Assembly: GCA_016200485.1 (NCBI GenBank)
Contig: JACQEP010000016.1
Coordinates: forward strand, 203,067-267,066
Direction of reading: 5' to 3'
Source: Gammaproteobacteria bacterium
GTDB taxonomy: Bacteria > Pseudomonadota > Gammaproteobacteria > Tenderiales > Tenderiaceae
DNA length: 64,000 nt
Of this stretch, positions 17,068 to 52,426 are shown in pieces; the first letter of the stretch is position 1; every line of letters begins with the position of its first letter. Both the position numbers and the translations under genes were made by a program. Under the pieces are notes generated by a model. That model was not told where the DNA came from, searched no databases, and saw only the letters and a program-made list of their open reading frames with translations.

Positions 17068-20000
17068 ATGTTAAAAATGTCATTTCCAAGTTACCGGATT
17101 CTGTCGTTAGGCTGCTGCAGCCTGGGATTATTGTTGTCCTTCACAACACAGGCTGCCATCCCGCTTGAGCCTGGTGTTGTCGGTTATGGCAAAGATACCT
17201 CCATCACACTGCATCTGAACCCGGGGCAAACGCTGCGCGAGGTAACGTTAAGCCCTGGCGGCCCGCAGTCTTTGCAAAGAATCCCGCTTCCTTCTGCTGC
17301 TCAGTCTATTACTCAAAGCGGACAATTCCTGTTGATTGGCACCGAGGATGGACTCCATGTTTTGGACACCGCCAGCAATACTCTGATTAGCCAGATCGCT
17401 CACGCAGGCGGATTCAAACAAATTTTAGCTCGCGACACCGCGGCGCTGGCGCTCGACAGCAACAACACATTACTACTGATCGATCTTTCAACACCGGCGC
17501 AGCCCCGCATTGGGGAGGAAATTAAAGCTGATCGAATCATCACCAGCTTGGGTATAAGCAATGGTGTTTTTTTTGCGACACTCAAGGATTCAAAAATTGC
17601 CCGGGTAGTGGTGGGCAACCGCGATTCATTGACACTTGAGATTTTGCCTGTGCCATCGGCCACTATTCACGCCATCACTGGCGATGGCGACAACCTGTAT
17701 TTTGCCGATGACCAAGGTTTTCTGGTCGGCACGATTGAAAACAATGCGCTCCGCATTCTAGGACGCTATTATTGCAATTCACCTGCCACCTCGGTCGCCA
17801 TCAATAATGGCTTGGCGCTAATCAATTGCAATGGCATCACTGTCGTCGATGTCTCAGACCCCAGCCTGCCACTTTGGCTCGGCAGCCACCAGCAACTTGG
17901 CAATGTGATTCAGATTGTCAGCGATGGCGCGCAACCTCTGGCACTGACCGACAACGGTTTATTATTTCGCCTGACCATCGACAATCCCGCCGAACCCTCC
18001 ATCACGAATAGCTGGCGTAGCGCTGAACCTCTGCGCGGCGCTATTGACCATGGCGACAAGATTTATGCATTAACTGCCAATGCCATTGAATTGATCGACG
18101 CCGCTCCCGCCGTTCCGCAACTGAGTAACGAGGCGCTCAATTTCGGTCAGGGAGTGAATCTTGGCGGAGAGCGCCGCGTTTTTGTTAGCGATCATCTGGC
18201 CTATGTTGCCGATTGGTTTTCGGGCATTCATATCTATGACATTCAACACCCAGAGCGCCCCAGCCTGCTTTCCAGCATGCATACACCTGGTTCTCCCAAA
18301 GGCATAATTGTCCGCAATAACATCGCCTATGTCGCAGATGATGATCACGGACTACAAGTGATTGATGTTCGCGATCCAGGCAAGCCGAAGCAAATCACAT
18401 CATTGGCCACTTCCGGGCTGGCATACACTCCCAAGCTTTCCGGCAACCATCTGTATCTCGCCAGTCATCGCGGTGGTTTTCAGATCATCGACATCAGCGA
18501 TCCACAAACACCGCGTTTGATTACCGATTACGATACGCCGGGCAAGGCTTGGTCACTCGAGGTGCGAGGGCATCTGCTTTATGTCGCCGATGATGACAGT
18601 GGATTGCTGATTTTCGATGTCGAGGATTCAACCCATCCGCGGCTGATCGGCCAATTTACCCCCGGTGGCGCTGCCGAAGAAGTGGTGGTTCGCGACAATA
18701 TCGCCTTCGTGGCTTTTTTTAATGACGGCCTTTACATACTCGACGTCAGCGATCCCGCTCAGCCCAATGTCATTTCACATCTTGCCCTCCCCGGCAATGC
18801 GCGCGGTCTGGATATCATTGGCGATCGCGCCTACGTTGCGGATTGGCTGGCGGGAATTCAGATTGTCGACATCTCTAAACTCGAACAGCCGCAACTGATC
18901 GGCACCCTTGACACACCTGGCGCCAGCTGGGGCGTAAAGGTTAACGGCGATAACGCCCTCGTCATGGATTGGTGGGGCGGCTTTACCGTGGTTGATATTC
19001 GTGATCCCCGGCAACTGCGCACACTCGGCAGCTATCACCGTCGTGGCCAGGTACATAACAGCAAAGTTCGCGGCAATTATTTATTTGTCGCCGACGGCAC
19101 CCACGGCTTGCAGGTATTCGACATCAAAAATCCGTTGAATCCCACCTGGATCACGGGTGCCGATTTCGCGGGCCATGCCTACGATCTCGCACTTAGTCAC
19201 AACGAAGTGCTGGTCGCCGCAGGTAGTGAAGGCATTATCCGGATTGAAGCCTCCGATCCCTTTAATGTCCGCGTTCAAGAATCATTGCGTGGACTGGTCG
19301 ATGTCCGCCAACTTACCTCCTTTAACAACATTGTCTTTGCTCTGGACCAGGGACATGCCTTGTTGGCGTTGGATCGATCCCAACCCGGCACACTTCAAAT
19401 TCTTGATCGCCTTGAAATCGCTGCCCAACAATTTTTGCTCCTTGGCCACCAGTTGTTGCTTGCCACCGATAATGGATTGGCGCTGATTGCATTTGAGCAA
19501 GCGCGTGGTTTTGGCACTGTCACCATGCTGAGTGGTAACTATGTGCCCGAGCATTTACTGAGCCTCGACCAAGGCAAGATGTTTATTTCCGCCGTCGGCC
19601 AACAGCTGAGACTGCATTCAATCGAGGGCACGCAATTAACTACACTGAGCCAACTTGATGTTGGCGCCAGAATTCGTGCCTTGAGTGTTGACGAAAACAC
19701 GCTTTACGTTGCCACAGATACCGAATTTACCTTCTATCGCCTTGAGAATACTCAATTTGAAAAAACCGCCAGCTATCCACTACTGATGAGTCCGCAGAGC
19801 ATCACTTTACACAACGGGACGGCTTATCTCGGCGGCGGTGAAACCCCAGTGGCGATTCGTTTGCTGCCCGCGCTCGCCGCCACTCCTTCCAACGATTCAA
19901 CGGCGGCGATCACCGTCCCCGGCTCACTGCCGGTAGGCAACTACCATCTGCAACTGCGCTTTGACGACAACACCAGTATCACGCTGCGCAATGCCCTGCG

Positions 20001-20109
20001 TGTTGACATGCCCGCCTTTGGCAAACCCAAAATGAGCCTTGATCAATTCAAGCAGCTCTTGGAGCAGAAAAAAGGCACCGATCTCTTTGTTCAACCCCCT
20101 AATCCTTAG
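17068..20109 (+). CDS. Large secreted LVIVD-repeat beta-propeller protein
   Basis: 1013 residues with a signal peptide (about 1-30, ending TTQA). The middle holds at least eight LVIVD-type repeats of about 42 residues, each with a D-x-x-x-P core: IHIYDIQHPERP, LQVIDVRDPGKP, FQIIDISDPQTP, LLIFDVEDSTHP, LYILDVSDPAQP, IQIVDISKLEQP, and FTVVDIRDP. Repeats outside this block are more diverged. Such repeats form beta-propellers on exported proteins of unknown function. The C-terminus (about 940-985) reads like an IPT/Ig strand region (GSLPVGNYHLQLRF). It starts directly after the tas stop and is followed 12 bases later by a helical periplasmic protein. Probably a surface or periplasmic scaffold; function unknown. 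Confidence 0.85.
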   Translation: MLKMSFPSYRILSLGCCSLGLLLSFTTQAAIPLEPGVVGYGKDTSITLHLNPGQTLREVTLSPGGPQSLQRIPLPSAAQSITQSGQFLLIGTEDGLHVLDTASNTLISQIAHAGGFKQILARDTAALALDSNNTLLLIDLSTPAQPRIGEEIKADRIITSLGISNGVFFATLKDSKIARVVVGNRDSLTLEILPVPSATIHAITGDGDNLYFADDQGFLVGTIENNALRILGRYYCNSPATSVAINNGLALINCNGITVVDVSDPSLPLWLGSHQQLGNVIQIVSDGAQPLALTDNGLLFRLTIDNPAEPSITNSWRSAEPLRGAIDHGDKIYALTANAIELIDAAPAVPQLSNEALNFGQGVNLGGERRVFVSDHLAYVADWFSGIHIYDIQHPERPSLLSSMHTPGSPKGIIVRNNIAYVADDDHGLQVIDVRDPGKPKQITSLATSGLAYTPKLSGNHLYLASHRGGFQIIDISDPQTPRLITDYDTPGKAWSLEVRGHLLYVADDDSGLLIFDVEDSTHPRLIGQFTPGGAAEEVVVRDNIAFVAFFNDGLYILDVSDPAQPNVISHLALPGNARGLDIIGDRAYVADWLAGIQIVDISKLEQPQLIGTLDTPGASWGVKVNGDNALVMDWWGGFTVVDIRDPRQLRTLGSYHRRGQVHNSKVRGNYLFVADGTHGLQVFDIKNPLNPTWITGADFAGHAYDLALSHNEVLVAAGSEGIIRIEASDPFNVRVQESLRGLVDVRQLTSFNNIVFALDQGHALLALDRSQPGTLQILDRLEIAAQQFLLLGHQLLLATDNGLALIAFEQARGFGTVTMLSGNYVPEHLLSLDQGKMFISAVGQQLRLHSIEGTQLTTLSQLDVGARIRALSVDENTLYVATDTEFTFYRLENTQFEKTASYPLLMSPQSITLHNGTAYLGGGETPVAIRLLPALAATPSNDSTAAITVPGSLPVGNYHLQLRFDDNTSITLRNALRVDMPAFGKPKMSLDQFKQLLEQKKGTDLFVQPPNP

Positions 20110-40451: not shown

Positions 40452-40479
40452 GTAGGGGCACGGCGCGCCGTGCCCCTAC
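40452..40479. repeat. 28-bp palindrome (GTAGGGGC family) at the end of the ankyrin gene
   Basis: Perfect palindrome. On the minus strand its first TAG (40478-40476) is the stop codon of the ankyrin-repeat gene. Preceded by a short CGTACCCGTACG-like stretch. Confidence 0.9.
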
Positions 40480-42443
40480 AATAATCCAAACAACCGTTTC
40501 TTTTGCCCGGGTTGAGCATCGAGCAGATTGACGATGTCCGTCCGCTGCCGGGATTGAGCAAGGTCGCGGGCGCTTTCACGTTTTTGATTGCGCAGGCCGC
40601 TGTCGGCACCGGCGGGGAGCAATACCTTAATGACTTCAGCATTGCCAGCACGCGCAGCGATAAGTAGCGCGGTGTCGCCAACACCATTTTGCGTATTTAC
40701 CGCAGCACCGGCTTGCAGCAAGGCGTTCACTGCCTCGGCATTGCCGGCGGCGCTGGCGAGCGTGAGGGCGGTGTCACGATTACGCGCCGCCAATCCCGGT
40801 TGTGCCTTTGCCCGCAGCAACAGGCTTACAACCTGAGCACTGCCGCGCCGGGCGGCGCGCATGAGCGGTGTGTAGCCCTCGCTATCGGCATAATCAACAG
40901 CCGCGCCTTGTTTAAGCAAACGTGCGGTCAGCTCGGCGTTACCGCGATCGGCAACCAGCCATAATGCGCTGCGTCCCTGGCGATCGGCGTCATTGACCGA
41001 CGCACCACCGGCAAGCAACGCATCGAGCAAGGCAGGATCATCACGGCGCAAGGCGGCGAGCAGTGGTGTCATGCCTTCATTGTTGGCACGACTGGCGTCG
41101 GCGCCGCTTTTCAGCAACGCGGCGGCGATGCTTGCATGACCACTCTGTGCGGCATGCCAGAGTGCAGTGGCACCACTTTTATCGCGCGTGTTAATTTCCA
41201 CGCCGGCATTAAGCAGTACCTGCACAGCTTCAAGCTTATTTGCGACAGCGGCCAGTATCAGCGGCGTGCGGCCGTCGCCATCGCGCGGATCAAGCTGGGC
41301 TTTGGCCTTCACTAACAAATCGACGGCCTCTGTATCGCCAGCCGTCGCGGCGAACGCGAGGGCTGTCATTCCCTTGGTATCGTGTTCGTTCACATCAACA
41401 CCCTGCGCCAACAGTGAACGCACCATCGCCGACTGACCGCGTGCGGCGGCGATCATTAAGTTACTCCAACCAACATAAAGTTGCTTGTCGGCAAGATTGG
41501 CATCGGCTTTCACCACCGTGTTTGCCGTCGCTGTTGTGGGTTCATCGCGCACTCCAGCGGCGATTAAACTTTGTTCCACTTGTTTTTGGCCATGATCACG
41601 CGCAGCCTGCACTACACTACGCCCTTTGGCGTCATTGGCCTTGAGATCGGCACCCGCAGCAATTAATTGCTTGATGATATCGACATCGCCATGCTCAATG
41701 GCTTCATGCAACACCGGATTACCGCTACCATCTCGTGTGTTGGGATTAGCCTTACCCGCTAGTAGCGCGCTTATTAATTTACTATCGCCACGGCGCACTG
41801 CAAGCAACAAGGCATCGTCCTGATATTTATCCTTGTGCTTTGGATCGGCGCCCTGTGTCAACAAGAATTTCGCCATCTCGATTTGTCCAGCAGAAATCGC
41901 CGCCAGTAATGGTGTACTGCCTTGTTGATCGGGGACATTAACATCATTATTTTGCACCAACAATTGTCGGACTCGCGCCAGATCACCTTTGGTCACCGCA
42001 CGATACAATTCTTCATTGGACTCCGTCGGCGTTTTCGCCATCGGTGCCAACAATGTTAGCCGTTGCCGGGCAAGCGCGTGCCCTTGTGCCGCGGCCTTTA
42101 CATACCAGGCGCGCGCCTGATCGACATTTAGCGGCGTGGCGGTGCCTGACTCGTACATCGTTGCCAAATTATATTGTGCCTTGTCATAGCCTTGCTCCGC
42201 CGCACGCTGCAGTAATTCGAAGGCTTTTTTATCATCACTCGCCACACCCTGGCCAGAACGATACAACACAGCGAGTTGATACTGTGCTGCGCGATCACCT
42301 TGTTGTGCCAAGGGCTTGAGCAGTTGCACGGCCTGAGTAAAATCTTTTTTGCGGATTGCACCGGCAACATCGTCCATGTCAGCGGCCTGAGCCATACTGA
42401 TCGACGCCGCAAGACAAATGGCAAGTCTGCTACGCCGTGCCAT
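40476..42443 (-). CDS. Periplasmic Sel1- and ankyrin-repeat protein
   Basis: 655 residues from the ATG at 42443. Start is uncertain: TTG codons at 42455 and 42461 are possible, and all starts overlap the upstream oxidoreductase gene. Signal peptide about 1-20 (ISMAQA). Three or so Sel1 (TPR-like) repeats (AAQYQLAVLYRSGQGV, KAQYNLATMYESGT) up to about residue 130, then about a dozen ankyrin repeats of 33 residues (GSTPLLAAISAGQIEMAKFL, GRTPLILAAVANKLEAVQVL, GYTPLMRAARRGSAQVVSLL). It is a protein-binding scaffold, probably in the periplasm. Its coupling to the Fe-S/FAD oxidoreductase suggests a link with the electron-transfer locus (inference). Confidence 0.88.
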   Translation of the reverse strand: MARRSRLAICLAASISMAQAADMDDVAGAIRKKDFTQAVQLLKPLAQQGDRAAQYQLAVLYRSGQGVASDDKKAFELLQRAAEQGYDKAQYNLATMYESGTATPLNVDQARAWYVKAAAQGHALARQRLTLLAPMAKTPTESNEELYRAVTKGDLARVRQLLVQNNDVNVPDQQGSTPLLAAISAGQIEMAKFLLTQGADPKHKDKYQDDALLLAVRRGDSKLISALLAGKANPNTRDGSGNPVLHEAIEHGDVDIIKQLIAAGADLKANDAKGRSVVQAARDHGQKQVEQSLIAAGVRDEPTTATANTVVKADANLADKQLYVGWSNLMIAAARGQSAMVRSLLAQGVDVNEHDTKGMTALAFAATAGDTEAVDLLVKAKAQLDPRDGDGRTPLILAAVANKLEAVQVLLNAGVEINTRDKSGATALWHAAQSGHASIAAALLKSGADASRANNEGMTPLLAALRRDDPALLDALLAGGASVNDADRQGRSALWLVADRGNAELTARLLKQGAAVDYADSEGYTPLMRAARRGSAQVVSLLLRAKAQPGLAARNRDTALTLASAAGNAEAVNALLQAGAAVNTQNGVGDTALLIAARAGNAEVIKVLLPAGADSGLRNQKRESARDLAQSRQRTDIVNLLDAQPGQKKRLFGLL

Positions 42444-43743
42444 ATTTAGTTTCAACTTCAATCCCTATGCTTTTCAAAAAGGGTGTCGGCAACACGCCGC
42501 CGGCACAGACAATGACGGCATCGTTGGCGACCTCTATCTCCTGATCGCCCTTTGCAATCCGCACTCGCTTGGCGCTGATCTCGCGCACCTGCGATTCAAG
42601 CAATACCTGTAACTTCCCGGTCTCCTGCGCTGCCTGCACTTCATTGCGATTCTTGGCCTTGGCGCGAGCGAAGGCTTCACCGCGATATGACAGAGTGACT
42701 TTTGTTCCGGGTTGCGCGGCGATGGTCCATGCCGCTTCCAGCGCACTGTCGCCACCACCAACGATCAAGACATGCTGGCCACGATACTGTTCGGCGTCGA
42801 TCAGGCGATACACCACTTTGGGCAACTCTTCACCCGGCACTTCGAGCTTGCGCGGCGTACCGCGGCGACCGATGGCCAGCAATACGCTGCGAACGCGATA
42901 TTGCGCTTGACTGGTGGCGACGACAAAGCCATCACCCTCGACCGTCATCGTCTCCATGCGCTCATTGAAACGCATTTGCAACTGATGCTGCTCGCGCACC
43001 TGCTGCCAGAATTCGAGCAGCGATTCCTTGCTGGTTTCACGAAATTGCACCTTGCCCACCAAAGGCAGCTCCACCGGCCGCGTCAACACCAGTTTGCCGC
43101 GCGGGAAGTGTGCCACTGTGCCGCCAAAAGACTCTTGCTCAATGACAACATAGCTGAGACCGGCTTGCTTCGCGGCCAGGGCGGCGGCGAAACCGGCCGG
43201 TCCGGCACCGACGATCAATACATCGAGACGATCATCATGGCCGCGGCCGCGTTGCGCAATCGCCATCATCGCCTGCCGCCCCTGCTCGATGGCATTGCCG
43301 ATCAGGCCCATGCCACCCAGTTCGCCAGCAATGAATACGCCTGGCACACTGGTTTCGAATTCTGGACTCAACAATGGAATGTCGACACCACGCTTTTCAG
43401 TGCCAAATACCAGCGTGATGCACTGCGACGGACATGCCCGCGCACAAGCACCGTGACCAATGCAGGCGCTGGGCGTGACCAGGTGCGCCTTGCCACCGAT
43501 CAAGCCAAGCACCGACTTCTCGGGGCAGGCATCGATGCATGAGCCGCAGCCAATACAGCAGGCGTGGTCGACCACCGGGTGCAATGACGCTGGCTCGGCC
43601 AATCCGGCGTCACGTGCATCGTTCAACAACGCCTGGCTGCGACGACTCACGCGGCGGCGGCGCCAGCCATAGATCGTCCAGATTAATGCCATCGCGCCGC
43701 CATACAGCGCCGTGATCGCCAGTGATTCGCTACTCATACTCAT
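42430..43743 (-). CDS. Membrane-anchored ferredoxin-type Fe-S / FAD / NAD(P) oxidoreductase, apparently permuted
   Basis: 437 residues. TM helix about 8-26, then a 2[4Fe-4S]-type ferredoxin domain: CIGCGSCIDACP and CIGHGACARACP, where the second motif has His in place of the usual second Cys. Then comes VPGVFIAGELGGMGL, a segment normally at the C-terminus of thioredoxin-reductase-like flavoproteins, before the FAD motif VLIVGAGPAGFAAAL and the NAD(P) motif VLIVGGGDSALEAAW. The C-terminus ends where that segment would usually follow. No redox CxxC is present, so it is not a thioredoxin reductase. Probably moves electrons between NAD(P)H and the membrane system. Divergent from the cytochrome operon. 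Confidence 0.82.
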   Translation of the reverse strand: MSMSSESLAITALYGGAMALIWTIYGWRRRRVSRRSQALLNDARDAGLAEPASLHPVVDHACCIGCGSCIDACPEKSVLGLIGGKAHLVTPSACIGHGACARACPSQCITLVFGTEKRGVDIPLLSPEFETSVPGVFIAGELGGMGLIGNAIEQGRQAMMAIAQRGRGHDDRLDVLIVGAGPAGFAAALAAKQAGLSYVVIEQESFGGTVAHFPRGKLVLTRPVELPLVGKVQFRETSKESLLEFWQQVREQHQLQMRFNERMETMTVEGDGFVVATSQAQYRVRSVLLAIGRRGTPRKLEVPGEELPKVVYRLIDAEQYRGQHVLIVGGGDSALEAAWTIAAQPGTKVTLSYRGEAFARAKAKNRNEVQAAQETGKLQVLLESQVREISAKRVRIAKGDQEIEVANDAVIVCAGGVLPTPFLKSIGIEVETKYGTA

Positions 43744-43818
43744 GATCTTCGGTATTTGCTGGGCGGATTTTATACCGATTCAAGCAACTTGCTGCGCAGT
43801 TCTCAAAATCCGTCTCGA

Positions 43819-43840
43819 ATTTGCGACAGATTGCGCAAAT
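43819..43840. promoter_or_regulatory. Inverted repeat in the divergent promoter region of the electron-transfer locus
   Basis: ATTTGCG - 8 bases - CGCAAAT, a perfect 7-bp dyad, in the 215-base region between the oxidoreductase and the cytochrome operon. A candidate regulator site for both directions; no match to a named consensus is claimed. Confidence 0.4.
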
Positions 43841-43958
43841 CGATAGTTACCCCATCGTCTAATTGTAATGAATGGCCGATAATATCCACATACAAGTACA
43901 GTCTTCCATTAGCTAAAATTAAATTACGCACTATGTAATAGTGCCAGGGTTAAATATC

Positions 43959-44816
43959 GTGAGCAGTGTCAATACCAGCATCCGAGGCAATCTGGAGCCC
44001 TCGCCGGCCAAAACTACCCGTAACAGCAGCGATGGCAAAACGCGCGCCAGTTTCACCGGCACGTTGATCTTTTTTCTACTGGTGACCATTCTGCTCTATG
44101 ACGGCTGGCTGAATCGATTCAACAAAGACATCACCGCCGAGCATGGCATCGGCTACTGGCTGGGGATTATCGGTGGCAGTCTGATGCTACTGCTGTTGCT
44201 TTATCCGCTGCGCAAACGCTGGGGTGCGATGCGCAAGCTGGGGGCGGTAAAACACTGGTTCCGTTTTCATATGGCACTGGGCGTGCTCGGGCCCACGGCA
44301 ATTCTTTATCACTCGAATTTTCAGCTCGGCGCGCTTAACAGTAATATCGCGCTGTCCTGCATGTTGATCGTCGCCAGCAGCGGTCTGCTCGGCCGATATT
44401 TTTACGCCAAGATTCACCATGGTCTCTATGGCCGTCAAGCCACGCTCGAAGAACTCAATGCCGCGCTGTCGGCACAAGAAAACATTCTGCTGGGCGATTC
44501 AGCGGTAGCCACCAGGATGAGCGAGCGTCTGGCGCGTTATCACTCCCTAGCGCAACCGCCAAGCAGTCTCGCGCAATCCTTAGCCCGTGTATTGGCGCTT
44601 GCCATCCATACGCGCAGTGACTACTGGCGCATCCGGCGCGGATATAGCCGTGAACTGCGCCGCCATCTGGCCGATTATTTTTCCGCCATCCGCCACGTTG
44701 CCGAGTATTCACTCTATACCCGTCTATTCGCACTTTGGCACATACTACATCTACCATTGTTTGTAATGATGCTGATTACCGGCATCGTGCATGTCATCGC
44801 CGTTCACGTGTATTGA
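43959..44816 (+). CDS. Inner-membrane cytochrome b-like protein of the electron-transfer operon
   Basis: 285 residues from the GTG at 43959 (AGGG 9 bases upstream; a GTG at 43941 is also possible). About five TM helices (34-48, 67-84, 103-118, 127-147, 258-282). Histidines in or near the membrane segments (His99, His104, His118, His261, His264, His278) could bind two b-type haems, as in cytochrome b561/ferric-reductase-like proteins. I could not place it in a named family. First gene of a four-gene operon; 6 bases separate it from the 21-haem cytochrome. Likely quinol-side entry or exit point for electrons. Confidence 0.7.
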   Translation: MSSVNTSIRGNLEPSPAKTTRNSSDGKTRASFTGTLIFFLLVTILLYDGWLNRFNKDITAEHGIGYWLGIIGGSLMLLLLLYPLRKRWGAMRKLGAVKHWFRFHMALGVLGPTAILYHSNFQLGALNSNIALSCMLIVASSGLLGRYFYAKIHHGLYGRQATLEELNAALSAQENILLGDSAVATRMSERLARYHSLAQPPSSLAQSLARVLALAIHTRSDYWRIRRGYSRELRRHLADYFSAIRHVAEYSLYTRLFALWHILHLPLFVMMLITGIVHVIAVHVY

Positions 44817-44822
44817 TTTTTT

Positions 44823-46364
44823 ATGCGTGCGGTCTGGTGGTGTTTATTCCTGACGTTATGGTCCAGTATTGCCACAGCAACGCTGGAGACACTGGTGATG
44901 CCCGGCAAGTTGGCCAGCGCCCATGCCAAATACGAAGAACAATGCGCCAAATGCCACACGCCGTTGCGCGACACACCGCAAAAAACGCTCTGCCTCGATT
45001 GCCATAAGGAGGTTGCTGCTGACATTAAGGCAAATCGCGGTCTGCATGGGCTCGATCCACAACTCATTAAAACCGACTGCAAAACGTGTCACACCGATCA
45101 CAAGGGACGTGGCGCCGATATCGTGCAATTCAATCAAACGCAATTCAATCATGCCCACACCAATTTTCCGCTCAAGGGCGCGCATCAATCGACACTCTGC
45201 GGCGCCTGTCACCGGACCGGCGATCCCTACCGCAAAGCGCCAAGCCGCTGTCTGGATTGCCACAAACAGGACGACCGCCACGCCGGAAAATTAGGCCCGC
45301 AATGCGATAAATGCCACACCCAGGATCAATGGCGTGATTCCCGCTTTGATCACAGCAAGACAAACTATCCGCTCACTGGCAAACACCGCCAGGTGGATTG
45401 CGCGCTGTGTCACCCCGGCCAAAAGTACAAGGATGTACCGCAGCAATGCGTCGCCTGCCACGGCATCAACGACGTGCACCAGAATCGTTATGGTGATAAC
45501 TGCAAGCGTTGCCACTCGACGCAGGGCTGGAAGGGCACCGCCTTTGATCATGATCGCGACACGCACTACAAGCTGCTGGGGCGGCATGCAACGACGCCTT
45601 GTCAAAGTTGCCACAACGCCGATTTCAAAACCAAACTGGCAACCGATTGTTACGGCTGTCATCGTGCCGATGATGAACATCAGGGCCGTTATGGCAAACA
45701 ATGCCAAAGCTGCCATACGCCTGAGCGCTGGGCCAAGAAACAGTTTGATCACGATAAAGCGACCAAATTTCCGCTGCGTGGCAAGCATCGGGACGTCATC
45801 TGTGGCGCCTGCCACAAGGGTCCGGCGAGCAATGAAAAAAATAAAACCGCCTGTCGGCAGTGTCATGCCAGCGCTGATATCCACCGCGGTAGCCAGGGTG
45901 ACAAGTGCGAGCGTTGTCATAGCGAAGCTGGATGGCGTGATCGCGTTGTTTTCGATCATGACACCACTCGCTTCCCATTAATCGGCTTGCATGCCGCAGC
46001 CACCTGCGCCGATTGTCATCCCACATCTGAATATAAGGGAATCAAGTCGAATTGCCTGGCATGTCATAGTGCACAGGACAAACACAAAGGCAGGCTCGGC
46101 GAAAAATGCGAAGCCTGCCACAACCCCAACGATTGGCGCTTTTGGCAATTTGATCATAGTCAGGAGACCAAATTCTCACTGCGCGAGGCGCATGCCAAAT
46201 TACGCTGTGATGATTGTCACCGTTCGGCGACTAACAATCTGAAGATTTCTTCAGCCTGCGGCGATTGTCATCGCGCGGATGACGTTCATGACGGCGAATT
46301 TGGTCAGCGTTGTGAACGCTGTCACAGCGAGCGTAGCTTCAAAGATATTACGATAAAAAGATAG
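44823..46364 (+). CDS. Periplasmic 21-haem cytochrome c
   Basis: 513 residues, signal peptide about 1-20. I count 21 CxxCH motifs, evenly spread, about one per 24 residues: CAKCH, CLDCH, CKTCH, CGACH and so on to CERCH. Between them runs a repeating pattern FDH-x(6-8)-FPL-x-G-x-H, supplying distal haem ligands in the style of cytochrome c7/NrfB-like modules. It contains no other domain, so electron conduction is its likely only job. Its place between the membrane cytochrome and the outer-membrane porin suggests a periplasm-spanning wire. Confidence 0.93.
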   Translation: MRAVWWCLFLTLWSSIATATLETLVMPGKLASAHAKYEEQCAKCHTPLRDTPQKTLCLDCHKEVAADIKANRGLHGLDPQLIKTDCKTCHTDHKGRGADIVQFNQTQFNHAHTNFPLKGAHQSTLCGACHRTGDPYRKAPSRCLDCHKQDDRHAGKLGPQCDKCHTQDQWRDSRFDHSKTNYPLTGKHRQVDCALCHPGQKYKDVPQQCVACHGINDVHQNRYGDNCKRCHSTQGWKGTAFDHDRDTHYKLLGRHATTPCQSCHNADFKTKLATDCYGCHRADDEHQGRYGKQCQSCHTPERWAKKQFDHDKATKFPLRGKHRDVICGACHKGPASNEKNKTACRQCHASADIHRGSQGDKCERCHSEAGWRDRVVFDHDTTRFPLIGLHAAATCADCHPTSEYKGIKSNCLACHSAQDKHKGRLGEKCEACHNPNDWRFWQFDHSQETKFSLREAHAKLRCDDCHRSATNNLKISSACGDCHRADDVHDGEFGQRCERCHSERSFKDITIKR

Positions 46365-46372
46365 GGGCTTAT

Positions 46373-48604
46373 ATGAAACGCATTGCTTCACTATTCATCT
46401 TGATCGCCGGACTTATGTTCGGCCTGTCCGCAATAGCCGCGGGTACTGGCTCGCAGCAGCGCTTTGATCACTCCATGACGGCCTTTCCGCTCACCGGTGG
46501 CCATGCCACGGTAAATTGCGCGGCTTGCCACCCACGCGGGGTATTTAAGGGCGCGCCGCGTACCTGTCAGGGCTGCCATGGTGCCAGTGCCAGCATTAAT
46601 GCGACACGCAAAAATTCGCGCCACATCGTCTCTAGCAGTACCTGCGATGCCTGCCATAGCGTATATACCTGGACGCCGGCAAAACGAATGGATCATGCCG
46701 AGGTCAGTAGCGATTGCTTTAAATGCCACAATGGCCGCACTGCACCTGGCAAACCAGCCAAACACATTCAAACCAATAGTCAGTGCGATAATTGCCATAT
46801 CAGTGGCAGCTGGACGCCTGCCGTCTTTGATCATCGTCAGGTGAGTGGAAGTTGCGCGAGTTGTCACAACGGCACTTCTGCTATGGGTAAGTCGGCAAAT
46901 CACGTGTTAACAACTCTTGATTGCAATAGTTGTCACATAACGCTGTCATGGACGCCAGCGCATTTTAATCACAGCAACGTGACCGGCAGTTGTTCGACCT
47001 GCCATAACGGCACGTCAGCAGCGGGCAAGAAGGTCTCGCACATCACCACGACCCAGGACTGCGGCATATGCCATACCACCAATGCCTGGTTACCCGCGGG
47101 GGTTGATCATTCCACCGCAGGTACTAATTGCTCAAGCTGCCACAACGGGTCTAACGCTACCGGCAAAACCGCAACACACGTTGCGACGACACAGCAATGC
47201 GGCACGTGTCATAGCACGACTGCTTGGAAACCCGCTAACTTCAATCACCTCGGTGCGACGGCGGCCTGCACCACATGCCACAATGGAACGAGCGCTACAG
47301 GCAAGACAGCGACGCATATCGTCACCACGTTGCAATGCAATAGTTGCCATACTACGACTGCCTGGAAGCCCGCGACCTTTAGCCACAGTGGCATTACTGC
47401 GGCCTGCTCCACCTGTCACAATGGCAGCAGTGCGACCGGCAAGACAACGACGCACATTGTCACCACCTTGCAGTGCGACAGCTGCCATACCACTCGCGCC
47501 TGGAAACCTGCGGCCGTCAATCATTCGCTGGTCGGCACGACTTGCTCAAGCTGTCACAATGGCACCACCGCCACCGGTAAAACAGCTGCTCATATTCCGA
47601 CTACGTTACAATGCGGAACTTGTCATAATACAGGTGCATGGTTACCGGCCAATTTCAACCACACCGGAGCCACTGGGACCTGTGCCACGTGCCACAATGG
47701 TTCAACCGCCACAGGCAAATCAACCTCACACATTGTTACTACGCTGGCGTGTGATACGTGCCATGCCACCACTGCTTGGAAACCTGCAAGCGTCAATCAT
47801 TCGCTCGTCGGTACAAACTGCTCAAGCTGTCACAATGGCAGCAGCGCTATCGGCAAAACGGTAACGCACATAGCGACAACCTTGCAATGCAACAGTTGTC
47901 ACACCACCAACGCCTGGCTGCCGGCGACATTTAGTCATTCGGGGGTGACTGCCGCCTGTTCCACTTGCCATAACGGCACCAGCGCTACTGGCAAATCGGC
48001 CTCACACATTGTCACCACCTTGACCTGTGATAGTTGCCACACCACCGCAGCGTGGAGACCTGCGACCGTCAATCATTCACTGGTCGGCACGAATTGTTCC
48101 ACCTGTCACAACGGTACCAGCGCTACCGGCAAGTCAGCAACGCACATAGCGACAACCTTGCAATGCAACAGTTGCCACACCACTGTTGCCTGGCTGCCGG
48201 CGACGTTTAGTCATTCGGGGGTGACCGCCGCTTGTTCCACTTGCCATAACGGCGTCAGTGCAACCGGTAAACCGACTGGGCATTTCTCAGGCGAATGCAG
48301 CAGCTGTCACGTCACTCTCGCCTGGCGACCGGTCAGCACCTATTCGCATACCTCGGCTAAGTACCCCGGCAATCACCGCGCGCCATTGACGTGTAACAGC
48401 AGCCGTTGTCACAGCACCTTAAGCAACGCAGTGAATTGGCCATATCCAGCTTATCAACCCGACTGCGGCGCCTGTCATGCTGGTAATTTCAAACAGGGCC
48501 CGCACGATGAAACGGTCAGTCAATTGCGCAACTGTAGCGGTAGCTGCCACGTACAGGGAGTGGCGCGCAGCGGCCAACATCATATAACGGATGCGGAATT
48601 CTAA
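46373..48604 (+). CDS. Tandem-repeat multihaem cytochrome c (28 CxxCH plus two variant motifs)
   Basis: 743 residues, signal peptide about 1-22. I count 28 CxxCH motifs plus CNSSRCH (Cx4CH) and CSGSCH (Cx3CH) near the C-terminus. The middle is built of 46-residue modules with two haems each, pattern CxxCHNG-x-SATGK-x(3)-HI-x-TTL-x-CxxCHTT-x-AW-x-PA-x-F-x-H. The last modules are nearly identical in DNA with a 276-bp (two-module) period, for example 47867 versus 48143. A Ser/Thr/Asn-rich surface and the place before the porin gene suggest an exported, perhaps extracellular wire. An AGGGG site precedes its ATG. Confidence 0.92.
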   Translation: MKRIASLFILIAGLMFGLSAIAAGTGSQQRFDHSMTAFPLTGGHATVNCAACHPRGVFKGAPRTCQGCHGASASINATRKNSRHIVSSSTCDACHSVYTWTPAKRMDHAEVSSDCFKCHNGRTAPGKPAKHIQTNSQCDNCHISGSWTPAVFDHRQVSGSCASCHNGTSAMGKSANHVLTTLDCNSCHITLSWTPAHFNHSNVTGSCSTCHNGTSAAGKKVSHITTTQDCGICHTTNAWLPAGVDHSTAGTNCSSCHNGSNATGKTATHVATTQQCGTCHSTTAWKPANFNHLGATAACTTCHNGTSATGKTATHIVTTLQCNSCHTTTAWKPATFSHSGITAACSTCHNGSSATGKTTTHIVTTLQCDSCHTTRAWKPAAVNHSLVGTTCSSCHNGTTATGKTAAHIPTTLQCGTCHNTGAWLPANFNHTGATGTCATCHNGSTATGKSTSHIVTTLACDTCHATTAWKPASVNHSLVGTNCSSCHNGSSAIGKTVTHIATTLQCNSCHTTNAWLPATFSHSGVTAACSTCHNGTSATGKSASHIVTTLTCDSCHTTAAWRPATVNHSLVGTNCSTCHNGTSATGKSATHIATTLQCNSCHTTVAWLPATFSHSGVTAACSTCHNGVSATGKPTGHFSGECSSCHVTLAWRPVSTYSHTSAKYPGNHRAPLTCNSSRCHSTLSNAVNWPYPAYQPDCGACHAGNFKQGPHDETVSQLRNCSGSCHVQGVARSGQHHITDAEF

Positions 48605-50344
48605 ATGAATAGCACACATACTTTTCGCTGGTCCTTATTATTGTGCGCATTCTTATTGCCGCCGCGCGTCTTTTCTGCGGCTGATATACCCGTCACGCCT
48701 GAGACGCCACCGCCACCGGGTGAATCGCTCGCTGAGTTGCCGGAAGACCCGTTGGCAGCGACCATGGAACAAGCGCGTCGCGCATTTAGCTCGGGCGATT
48801 ACTCACGCGCGGCTCAACTCTATACTAAGGCGCTCGATAGCAAGGATAAACGTTTTGCTCAGGTAGCACTCGAAATGCTTGGTGTCGTCCGTGAACGCAA
48901 TGGCCAGTACGCACAGGCAAAGGCGGTATACGAGCAGTATTTGTCACGCTTTCCCAAAGGCGAAGGTGCAGTTCGTGTGCGGCAGCGACTTGCAGGCCTA
49001 GTAACTGCGGAATGGAAACCAAAAGAGACCGTGCCTGAAACGAAGCCCGTTGCGAAACAAGAGAAGGGATCCGAGTTCTATGGATCGTTCGGTCAGACCT
49101 ATCGCCATTTCTCAACTTCAACGGCCACGTCTTCATCTGATCAAAGTTCGCTCTTGTCATCCATTGATCTGAATGCCCGCGGTCATAGCAGCAATCTTGA
49201 CATCAAAGGTCGTATTAACGCCGGCCATCTTGCAGATATCACTTCGAATAAGGATAAAGACTATTTGTATTTTGCTTATCTCGATCTGAGCGGCCAAAGC
49301 CCATTCGGTGCGCGTATCGGCCGCCAAACTCAATATGACAGCGGTATTTTTGGCCGCTTCGACGGGCTAAATCTCCGCATGCGCTTGCCGGGTGGAAATT
49401 CGGTAAAGCTTGCTGGCGGATCACCGGTCGAATCGTCGTCACACACTCGTGTCGATCCGCTTCGTCATTTCGTTAGTTTGAGTCTCGATACTCAAACCAG
49501 TGATCGTCTCTGGAATTTTAATGGCTATCTAATCAATCAAACTGCCGAGAGTCTTAACGACCGACGTGCTATCGGCCTAGAGTCACGCTACTACAGCGAA
49601 ACGCAGACGTTTGCCGGGTTGGTGGATTATGATGTCGGCTATCATGCCCTCAACATTTTAATGGCCCAGGGCACCTTGACGCTTGCGGATCAAAACATCG
49701 TTAATTACGCGATCGATTATCGCAGTAGTCCGCTGCTCGCCACGCGTAACGCGATCATCGGGCAGCCCGTCACCAAACTGGACGAGCTGCGGCAACTGTT
49801 TACCGAATCCGAGATCCGCGATTTGGCGGCAGATCGCACTGCGACTAGCCGCATTGTGATGCTCGGAATTTCACATCCCTTCAGCAGCCGCTGGCGGGGC
49901 GATCTCGATTATAGCGCCAGCGATCTTTCGGCAACGCCCGCCTCTGGCGGCGTTGCCGCGACCGACAGTACGGGTATCGAACATTCGATCAGCGGACGGC
50001 TGGTTGGCAATGGCATCGGTTGGCCTCAGGATTACACAACATTCGCGCTCCGACTTGCCACTGCTCAAAATATCGATCAAACCACTTTTAATGCGAATCA
50101 CCGACACGTCACTACGGATGGTTGGCGCATCAATCCAGGGATGCGCCTGAACTATCGCCGTTACAACGATCGCGCCGATACACAATGGGATGCCGCGCCA
50201 AATTTAAAAGTCGACTATCTCTGGGGCAAGCGCTTCTACTTCGAACTGGAGGCCGGTTACGAACGCTCACATCTCAATACCTGGCCACAAGCGATTGATA
50301 CTGACACCACTTACCTCTACGCCGGTTATCGCGTGAATTTTTGA
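48605..50344 (+). CDS. TPR / outer-membrane beta-barrel porin of the electron-transfer operon
   Basis: 579 residues. Signal peptide about 1-25, a proline-rich linker, two TPR-like helices pairs (AFSSGDYSRAAQLYTKALDS and AQAKAVYEQYLSRFPKGEGA, about 55-130), then a long beta-barrel region (from about 155) of alternating amphipathic strands with FGARIGRQTQYDSG and WRGDLDYSAS, ending YLYAGYRVNF with the C-terminal Phe expected for BAM-inserted barrels. It starts directly at the stop of the preceding cytochrome gene (TAAATG). Likely the sheath through which a multihaem cytochrome crosses the outer membrane, with the TPR region holding the periplasmic partner. Confidence 0.88.
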   Translation: MNSTHTFRWSLLLCAFLLPPRVFSAADIPVTPETPPPPGESLAELPEDPLAATMEQARRAFSSGDYSRAAQLYTKALDSKDKRFAQVALEMLGVVRERNGQYAQAKAVYEQYLSRFPKGEGAVRVRQRLAGLVTAEWKPKETVPETKPVAKQEKGSEFYGSFGQTYRHFSTSTATSSSDQSSLLSSIDLNARGHSSNLDIKGRINAGHLADITSNKDKDYLYFAYLDLSGQSPFGARIGRQTQYDSGIFGRFDGLNLRMRLPGGNSVKLAGGSPVESSSHTRVDPLRHFVSLSLDTQTSDRLWNFNGYLINQTAESLNDRRAIGLESRYYSETQTFAGLVDYDVGYHALNILMAQGTLTLADQNIVNYAIDYRSSPLLATRNAIIGQPVTKLDELRQLFTESEIRDLAADRTATSRIVMLGISHPFSSRWRGDLDYSASDLSATPASGGVAATDSTGIEHSISGRLVGNGIGWPQDYTTFALRLATAQNIDQTTFNANHRHVTTDGWRINPGMRLNYRRYNDRADTQWDAAPNLKVDYLWGKRFYFELEAGYERSHLNTWPQAIDTDTTYLYAGYRVNF

Positions 50345-50385: not shown

Positions 50386-51840
50386 TTAAGGGCAGAACGG
50401 GCTCGCCATACAGATGTTTTGCGCGGGGTCTGCCAAGCTCCATGGGGCTTGTCCCAATTGATCGAAACCGCCTTCGACATAGGCATAGGTGCCCGGTTGG
50501 TAGATCGGAATGTAATTACCGCCGCCATCTTTGTACCAAGTGTTATTGGAATACGTGCCGCCATTGGTGTTCTTGACGGTACCGATGGCGCCGCCAGTAT
50601 AAAATTGGCGGTTATAAAATGCGCTGTAGTAAGTATCCAAACCTGCGGCGGGCGCCACCCAGCCAGCGCCCGGGGTATAACTATATTGGCTTGCCGTCAT
50701 GTGGACATGATTACCGGGTACCGAGGCACGCTCGAAGGCATCATAGTGGGCATCCGGCGCCCTTAACGGATCAGTGAACCATTGTTTCATCACGATCTCG
50801 GAGTTGGGATCATAGCTGTAATTAAACGCTTTGCCGTCCAGTGTTGAGTTACCGGAGGTGCGGGCGTTGGTACTCTTGTTCAGCGCCAATTCCCGATCAT
50901 GCGGCACGACTGGGTTCTGGCCAATGGTCAGCGCCGTGGTGTCGCTATAGGTGCGATTACGCATATCGACCTGGAAGATTGCCGAATACCCCTCGACTGG
51001 ATCATTCACACTCTGATAAATGAGTGGCTTGTGATCGATGCGATCCTTGAGAAATTCCTGATAGGCGCCAGTGGCGCTCTTGTCCACCTGGCGCATGATG
51101 ACACGGGTGGGGTTACCGGAGCCGTTACCATTCCAGCGTGGGTCGCGGTGGTTGGTAATACCCACCGCGTTGCCATTGCCGTCGGAGTTGTACAGGCCGA
51201 TCGGATCACAGCCGTTTCCGGCATATAGGGCACAGGCATCCGTGTTGAAGGCGTCCATGATGCCGGTGAAATTGTTGTTGCTGCCCACCGTGGCGCCCGT
51301 GAACCCGCCGCTGTCCGACAACGAACCTGCCGGGGTGCCGCTGGGACTCGACTTGGTTGCCAAGTCACCCCCTTGAGTGTAGGTCTGCGACCCCCCCATC
51401 TTGACGTAGGTGTCCTGCTTCCATTCGGAGTCGCGGCCGCCCAGCACCAGGTGAAACCATGTGCCATTCAGCGCTGCGTCGGCACCGGTATAGCCGCTGA
51501 CGGTGACGGCTTCGTATCGATATTCCATCTGATCGGCGATGCCGAATTTCTTGGTCTTGACGCCAGCGGTCAAAATGGATTTGTCCCAGATACACCCATT
51601 ATCCTGATAACCATAACCGGTAAAAAAGCAGGAAGACAGATGGCGGCCGCCTTGATAACCATTGGCATCGCCGGTGGTGTCGGTGACCGTGGTATTGGGC
51701 AGGAAATTTAATCCGAAATATGCGAGGGCATTTAAAGGCCAGATCACGGCCATCAGCGCCAGCAAGGCTGCGCGGCCCAGCGTGGCCTGCCCCTTGAATT
51801 TCTCACTCATCCTTGAGCCGATGTCATCTCTTTTACTCAT
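50386..51840 (-). CDS. Secreted Gly/Asn/Ser-rich protein of unknown function
   Basis: 484 residues from the ATG at 51840 (GAG-type site; an ATG at 51810 is also possible and begins nearer the signal). Hydrophobic signal LLALMAVIWPLNALA, then a polar, aromatic-rich, low-charge mature protein with many Gly, Asn, Ser, Thr and Tyr and few cysteines (SSCFFTGYGYQDNGCIWDKS). It ends NICMASPFCP. It has no haem motif and I recognise no family. It faces the cytochrome operon tail to tail, 41 bases away. It could be a surface protein; association with the electron-transfer locus is only positional. Confidence 0.7.
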   Translation of the reverse strand: MSKRDDIGSRMSEKFKGQATLGRAALLALMAVIWPLNALAYFGLNFLPNTTVTDTTGDANGYQGGRHLSSCFFTGYGYQDNGCIWDKSILTAGVKTKKFGIADQMEYRYEAVTVSGYTGADAALNGTWFHLVLGGRDSEWKQDTYVKMGGSQTYTQGGDLATKSSPSGTPAGSLSDSGGFTGATVGSNNNFTGIMDAFNTDACALYAGNGCDPIGLYNSDGNGNAVGITNHRDPRWNGNGSGNPTRVIMRQVDKSATGAYQEFLKDRIDHKPLIYQSVNDPVEGYSAIFQVDMRNRTYSDTTALTIGQNPVVPHDRELALNKSTNARTSGNSTLDGKAFNYSYDPNSEIVMKQWFTDPLRAPDAHYDAFERASVPGNHVHMTASQYSYTPGAGWVAPAAGLDTYYSAFYNRQFYTGGAIGTVKNTNGGTYSNNTWYKDGGGNYIPIYQPGTYAYVEGGFDQLGQAPWSLADPAQNICMASPFCP

Positions 51841-52426
51841 CTCGGCTCTCACTTAGATTTTCCGGTCAACCCCACAGCGATTGGCAACACTTAATGGATG
51901 ATCCGTAATTCAAAATACAACACCAAGCTGAATTGGGGCTGAAACCCACAACCAAAAAGCAACTATTGCCTGAATCAAGGTCTAACTAGGTAAATATTGT
52001 ATAATTTATATGGTTATTATCCGCCTTTGAATGCGCGCAGGTAGGCAGCCACCTGTCCGAATCCATCGAAGAAAGCCGTCATCCCATCGCACCTGGCCTC
52101 GTTACGCTTTATGCCGATATCGTCTTCGATTATGTCGATATTAAGACTGAAAAATCCTGAATTAGCGTCGATCAATGGCGGTCATCGCATAGCCTGCGCG
52201 AAGACATCGAAAATTCGAGCGCTCCGGCACCGAGTACTTCCCTATCGAACCGCCCAGGGTTGAACTGCCGGATCTCGTTAACTCCCCCCTGTTTTTTTGC
52301 CCACTGCTGCCGATCTATATACCACGGGGCGGAAGTCTTACATTGACACCTGAGTTATTAAAATCAATGGGTTAAAGCCCACCAACCTTACTGGAATTGG
52401 CGGCAGGGATGAGCAAACAGGAAACC
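51841..52426. other. Intergenic region upstream of the HDOD gene
   Basis: About 586 bases with no convincing gene. One open stretch at about 52023-52160 (VTLYADIVFDYVDIKTE) has no start codon and could be a decayed gene piece. A small dyad TGGG-TTAAAG-CCCA lies near 52367. Confidence 0.45.

Follow-up and report, generated by a model that had tools for sequence, protein, structure and literature searches.

A PCC3 porin-cytochrome locus of a Tenderiaceae bacterium with a conserved iron-sulfur flavoprotein as its probable inner end

We analysed a group of multihaem cytochrome genes in a 64,000-nucleotide stretch of contig JACQEP010000016.1 (positions 203,067 to 267,066; the whole stretch is here called the window) from a gammaproteobacterium of the family Tenderiaceae, assembly GCA_016200485.1. 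A prior sequence-only reading, made without database searches, had predicted here a transmembrane electron conduit with about 50 haems, most like the PCC3 type of porin-cytochrome cluster. The locus comprises six genes (Table 1). Those for an inner-membrane protein (IMP), a 21-haem cytochrome, a 28-haem cytochrome and a porin are co-directional, with intergenic gaps of 6, 8 and 0 bases by the coordinates of the open reading frames (ORFs), the gap of 0 bases being that between the 28-haem cytochrome gene and the porin gene. A flavoprotein gene (42430-43743) is divergent from this four-gene operon (43941-50344), and a Sel1/ankyrin gene shares 32 bases with the flavoprotein gene. The tight operon divergent from the flavoprotein was thus reproduced as first described, ORFs and gaps included; the interval then assigned to the conduit, 42430-50344, correctly took in the operon and the flavoprotein but omitted the Sel1/ankyrin gene (40476-42461), which is part of the locus. 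Scans for promoters and terminators gave no signal above shuffled sequence.

Table 1. Genes of the PCC3 locus in the window
Feature	Position	Strand	Basis
Sel1 + ankyrin-repeat protein, 661 aa, secreted (predicted periplasmic)	40476..42461	-	Pfam Sel1 + Ank
FeS-FAD: membrane-anchored, circularly permuted TrxR/YpdA-like flavoprotein with 2[4Fe-4S]-type domain, 437 aa	42430..43743	-	Pfam/NCBIfam, permutation test, homologue motifs, co-occurrence
PCC3 inner-membrane protein (IMP), 291 aa, predicted di-haem b, GTG start	43941..44816	+	motifs, family alignment, topology
Predicted periplasmic 21-haem cytochrome c, 513 aa	44823..46364	+	CxxCH count, N-terminal signal-like segment
Predicted extracellular cytochrome c, 28 CxxCH + CX4CH + CX3CH, 743 aa	46373..48604	+	motif count and spacing, Pfam
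PCC3 porin, 579 aa: signal peptide, TPR (~49-136), beta barrel (~154-579)	48605..50344	+	Pfam TPR, AlphaFold2, fold matches

PCC3 clusters are widespread among proteobacteria, iron oxidisers included. As defined by He et al. (2017, PMC5566968), they consist of a porin, extracellular and periplasmic multihaem cytochromes and an inner-membrane protein of about 300 residues with five helices, the third and fifth bearing WX3HX13H and the fourth SGXXG. The IMP of the window agrees in size, helices and motifs: it has 291 residues, five predicted transmembrane (TM) helices, the motif WX3HX13H twice (WFRFH...H at 106-124, from W106 to H124, and WHILH...H at 266-284, from W266 to H284) and SGLLG at S147, features in keeping with its earlier description as a membrane b-type-like protein. 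Both histidine motifs are kept in 48/49 IMP homologues and would bind two b haems. The IMP had no Pfam match, and a search of PDB sequences with it returned nothing usable.

The two cytochromes carry 21 and 28 CxxCH motifs, where residue shuffles yield at most 2 and at most 3, respectively, and the larger also contains the two variants CNSSRCH (CX4CH) and CSGSCH (CX3CH), so that the motif counts given before stand. In both, Pfam recognises hardly anything but cytochrome c7/c3-type repeats; those of the larger protein are of the cytochrome C7/MtrC-MtrF-like kind, its motif spacing shows that it is built on a 23-residue repeat, and a search of PDB sequences with it gave no match. With localisation predicted in each case, 21 motifs fall within the range of PCC3 periplasmic cytochromes (about 21, 21-27) and 28 plus two variants within that of the extracellular ones (10-85), and the ratios of residues to haems, 24.4 (513/21) and 26.5 (743/28), lie between 22 and 39. 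Published PCC3 medians are 21 periplasmic and 34 extracellular haems (PMC5566968), the pair of Sideroxydans ES-1 has 24 + 28 (PMC8788666), and Gallionellaceae include extracellular PCC3 cytochromes for which 28 haems are given (Hoover et al., 2023, PMC10734462); 21 and 28 both occur in that family, as they do here. For comparison, loci were taken around the IMP gene in 39 genomes of the host's class, together with further flavoprotein loci and relatives in named genomes. The first cytochrome after the IMP carries 21 CxxCH in 34/43 of these loci, the second complete cytochrome carries 13 to 67 (median 23), and the highest count is 81, in one open-ended ORF. A total of about 50 haems is not exceptional among PCC3 loci, and since 21 + 28 haems are ordinary for PCC3, the wire itself was already known.

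The remaining component, the 579-residue protein adjoining the cytochrome genes, had been read as a TPR/beta-barrel protein, and it bears this out: Pfam recognises the TPR stretch, and an AlphaFold2 model (mean predicted local distance difference test score, pLDDT, 64) places about 22 strands between residues 155 and 578, the barrel for which a test had been set beforehand. The Foldseek matches of the model are outer-membrane barrels, and VIA-align superposes barrels at Z 15 to 17.7 over about 253-366 residues with a root-mean-square deviation of 4.1-6.7. MtrB of the Mtr complex (6r2q_B) is among the matches at Z 15.2, no higher than other barrels; because many barrels have similar Z (15-18), the comparison shows a barrel and not kinship with MtrB. 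Searched against PDB sequences, the porin profile found convincing matches only to TPR-type proteins and no PCC porin. Porin homologues stand at PCC3 loci, and most of the other loci with enough sequence have the porin gene. About 17 of them (5231-5794 of L042, 14356-14901 of L044 and about 15 more) have an extra, exported-looking ORF of 140-200 residues before the porin, which matches longer porin models over their N-terminal portion and, in the two cases tested, had no Pfam match; the window differs in lacking this small ORF, with TPR and barrel fused in one protein. The proposal that the cytochromes form a periplasmic haem capacitor or a detoxification system with no outer-membrane conduit could draw on the charge storage that has been suggested for PCC3 (PMC10734462), yet the porin gene abuts the 28-haem gene here, a porin gene occurs at most other PCC3 loci with enough sequence, and the barrel is supported; we consider this proposal very improbable. 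Nor do the cytochromes occur only beside periplasmic enzymes such as nitrite or tetrathionate reductases; homologous loci hold a porin and a membrane protein.

All the sequence-level defining features tested are present, and by these the locus is a PCC3 porin-cytochrome cluster, as the resemblance noted earlier had suggested. It shares with MtrCAB, MtoAB and PioAB an outer-membrane barrel and multihaem cytochromes but differs in having no decahaem cytochrome and another inner-membrane protein; with no match to the MtrB/PioB family (PF11854) in the porin or in the whole host genome, and with haem counts of 21 and 28, it was not assigned to these systems. PCC4 likewise has an IMP with the same histidine spacing and other redox genes nearby, but comprises three periplasmic cytochromes of 4, 5 and 10 haems and no extracellular cytochrome (He et al., 2017, PMC5566968), whereas the window has two, of 21 and 28 haems, and PCC4 was set aside. 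A third comparison was with the domain of ferric reductases and NADPH oxidases, which resembles the IMP in having an HX13H motif on each of helices 3 and 5 and, as presumed partner, a cytoplasmic pyridine-nucleotide flavoprotein. The flavoprotein here differs in being thioredoxin reductase (TrxR)-like, with iron-sulfur (Fe-S) clusters, and separately encoded; as the IMP has only the histidine spacing in common with that domain, it was not placed in it.

PCC3 as published consists of four genes. The occurrence of the flavoprotein beyond the window was followed with cut-offs of E up to 1e-80 for the flavoprotein and E < 1e-40 for the IMP, the latter chosen once the E values were seen to break between 5.7e-47 and 4.5e-17. 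Among 369 genomes of the host's class, each protein occurs in 43: 42 genomes have both, one the IMP only, one the flavoprotein only and 325 neither. Both exceptions look like fragments, as a 115-residue flavoprotein piece adjoins the IMP in the first (G194) and the flavoprotein lies on a 3.5-kb contig beside haem-motif ORFs in the second (G104). Copy numbers mostly run in parallel, with two IMPs and two flavoproteins in each of four genomes (G041, G044, G105 and G297) and one IMP with two flavoproteins in G375. In eight genomes of the sample the IMP hits were weak (E 1e-11 to 1e-17) and no flavoprotein passed the cut-off; these hits were taken for distantly related membrane proteins outside PCC3. 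A second sample, 288 genomes from a different class in the phylum, had the two proteins in the same three genomes, the remaining IMP hits being weak. The flavoprotein gene is upstream of and divergent from the IMP gene in 41/45 loci holding both.

The association extends, in a single Bacteroidota case, to plasmid NC_018749.1 of Emticicia oligotrophica, which encodes a flavoprotein homologue of 45% identity in an operon running in one direction through an IMP-like protein with two WX3HX13H and SGVVG, the flavoprotein, a 23-haem and a 40-haem cytochrome (by CxxCH) and a candidate barrel gene. The first gene of this PCC3-like operon encodes CcsA, which serves cytochrome c maturation (L081, 5052-8138), and this suggests that the plasmid carries a self-contained conduit. 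The sequence-only reading had held that the flavoprotein and the ankyrin/Sel1 protein look new; they are conserved at PCC3 loci and not local novelties, while their partnership with PCC3 appears to be unreported, as neither is mentioned in connection with PCC3 in the main texts of the PCC3 papers searched. What seems to be new is thus the standing of the two as conserved PCC3 neighbours.

From its N-terminus, the flavoprotein consists of a hydrophobic anchor, a two-cluster ferredoxin domain, the C-terminal FAD segment of a TrxR fold and then the FAD and NAD(P) Rossmann domains. Its best matches in NCBIfam and among PDB sequences are YpdA, thioredoxin reductase and TrxR-like ferredoxin-NADP reductase, with which it shares the two Rossmann folds and from which it differs by circular permutation, the membrane anchor, the added Fe-S domain and the lack of a redox CxxC. 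The permutation, proposed earlier, was confirmed because moving the N-terminal FAD segment to the C-terminus made partial alignments nearly complete, from 1-264 of 316 to 1-310 for YpdA and from 2-246 of 300 to 2-297 for TrxR; profile scores rise only slightly. The second Fe-S motif reads CxGHGAC, with a histidine invariant in 52/52 homologues where the second cysteine is usual, and a histidine-ligated cluster is possible. Cys66 of the first motif is Ser or Thr in 8/52 homologues, and the Fe-S ligand positions are otherwise kept. Lysines and arginines are more numerous after the anchor than before it in 46/49 flavoproteins, which by the positive-inside rule would put the Fe-S domain on the cytoplasmic side, and the positive loops of the IMP place its long charged TM4-TM5 loop on the same side; from anchor charges and loop topology together, the two proteins would meet there.

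In the flavin part, CxxC is found in 0/52 homologues, so the redox-active CxxC of the NADPH domain of thioredoxin reductases is missing and a role as thioredoxin reductase, or as thiol reductase generally, was rejected. The same observation bears on the proposal that the flavoprotein-IMP pair serves not respiration but the maturation of periplasmic cytochromes, supplying reductant for CxxCH thiols and haem irons. Very large apocytochromes would demand much thiol and haem reduction, and the CcsA gene at the head of the Emticicia operon would fit. Against it, besides the absence of CxxC, the family alignment of the IMP shows no conserved cysteine and other large cytochromes mature without the flavoprotein, and we regard this role as very improbable.

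Taken with the conservation, these features make it fairly likely that the locus is a PCC3-type trans-envelope conduit with an unreported and apparently obligatory inner end, the flavoprotein, which would probably be the missing cytoplasmic end of the PCC3 wire. In the path we propose, electrons would be exchanged between a carrier in the cytoplasm, NAD(P)H/NAD(P)+ being the most likely, and the anchored flavoprotein with its FAD and two Fe-S clusters; between the latter and the two b haems of the IMP, crossing the inner membrane; between the IMP and the 21-haem cytochrome, crossing the periplasm; between this and the cytochrome of 28-30 haems, which would sit in or at the porin of about 22 strands; and finally between the porin-held cytochrome and an extracellular mineral, electrode, humic substance or partner cell. 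We infer the contact of flavoprotein and IMP, the nicotinamide partner and the localisations of the proteins.

The earlier caution that direction cannot be read from sequence was fair, and the evidence points both ways. We lean slightly to export, at about even chances, with import appreciably less probable and the small remainder left to flow in both directions. The lean arises because a cytoplasmic NAD(P)H flavoprotein with a di-haem b protein is the layout of ferric reductases and NADPH oxidases, because the membrane potential favours outward electron movement, and because Fe(II) around neutral pH lacks the reducing strength to convert NAD(P)+ to NAD(P)H by this route without further help. 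Expression in Sideroxydans ES-1, where both PCC3 clusters are down-regulated on Fe(II) (PMC8788666), also counts for outward flow. Inward flow accords with the iron oxidisers among PCC3 carriers.

The published model has electrons enter from a donor outside the cell, for example Fe(II), and pass through the cytochromes and the IMP to the quinone pool; the flavoprotein would then be a side partner, such as a regulator or maturation helper. That model (He et al., 2017, PMC5566968) has in its favour those same iron oxidisers, a host that looks like an autotroph and has a Uet-like cluster, and the expression data from Sideroxydans CL21. Against it stand the decrease of both ES-1 clusters on Fe(II) and the near-perfect co-occurrence of flavoprotein and IMP across classes, which exceeds what a side partner would lead one to expect, and we think it rather unlikely. 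A bolder reading holds PCC3 to be nicotinamide-linked and not primarily a system of quinone-linked Fe(II) oxidation: the permuted Fe-S flavoprotein, with its unusual histidine cluster motif, and the di-haem b IMP might together make up a new kind of split NAD(P)H dehydrogenase in the membrane, exporting electrons via about 50 haems or importing them to NAD(P)+ from a low-potential donor. This reading we put forward tentatively, a little short of an even chance.

Several points weigh against the flavoprotein as the inner end. The published model links the IMP to quinone and omits the flavoprotein (PMC5566968); in Sideroxydans CL21 expression of the IMP gene from one of the PCC3 copies increased when the cells were able to oxidise iron (PMC12442390); and the two RuBisCO large subunits and the Uet-like cluster of the host fit electron uptake. 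The co-occurrence is no proof of IMP-flavoprotein contact, and its Fisher p = 4e-53 ignores shared ancestry and is to be read as 'strong' only. The distance matrices of the two proteins correlate at r = 0.72 (at most 0.35 in 2000 permutations), which counts in favour of the pairing, but this correlation includes species phylogeny. AlphaFold2 models of the flavoprotein, from three sequences, had a mean pLDDT of 43, too poor for a fold search.

The value of the locus lies in its near-obligatory Fe-S flavoprotein partner and not in the conduit, which is of ordinary size. The partner gives a concrete soluble-domain target for where PCC3 electrons enter or leave, and its distribution suggests that it could serve as a marker separating true PCC3 loci from other large cytochromes.

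The second partner, the ankyrin/Sel1 gene, is less constant at PCC3 loci than the flavoprotein. It lies directly downstream of the flavoprotein gene on the same strand, mostly overlapping it, in 30/50 loci with room, and within 2.5 kb in 39/53, contig ends inflating the misses. Since 35/36 of the proteins have a hydrophobic N-terminal segment, they are probably exported, and, as a guess, the protein could be a periplasmic scaffold or assembly factor.

Elsewhere in the host genome (G000:C24, 654-13189 of L109), the Uet-like cluster encodes an undecahaem protein (11 CxxCH, 939 residues), two NHL proteins, three trihaem cytochromes, a 590-residue candidate barrel, a peptidyl-prolyl isomerase (PPIase) and a tetrahaem protein, a set of genes that agrees with the one reported for Uet in Tenderiales and Gallionella (PMC10734462). 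Two different predicted conduits, PCC3 and Uet-like, are thus present in the genome, which has no MtrB/PioB. In the window, a gene convergent with the porin gene (50386-51852) encodes a 488-residue protein with an N-terminal hydrophobic segment, which had no Pfam or NCBIfam match and was not found at the other PCC3 loci examined. Farther off, a 1013-residue LVIVD beta-propeller protein is encoded at 17068-20109, upstream of sensor kinase and GGDEF/EAL genes.

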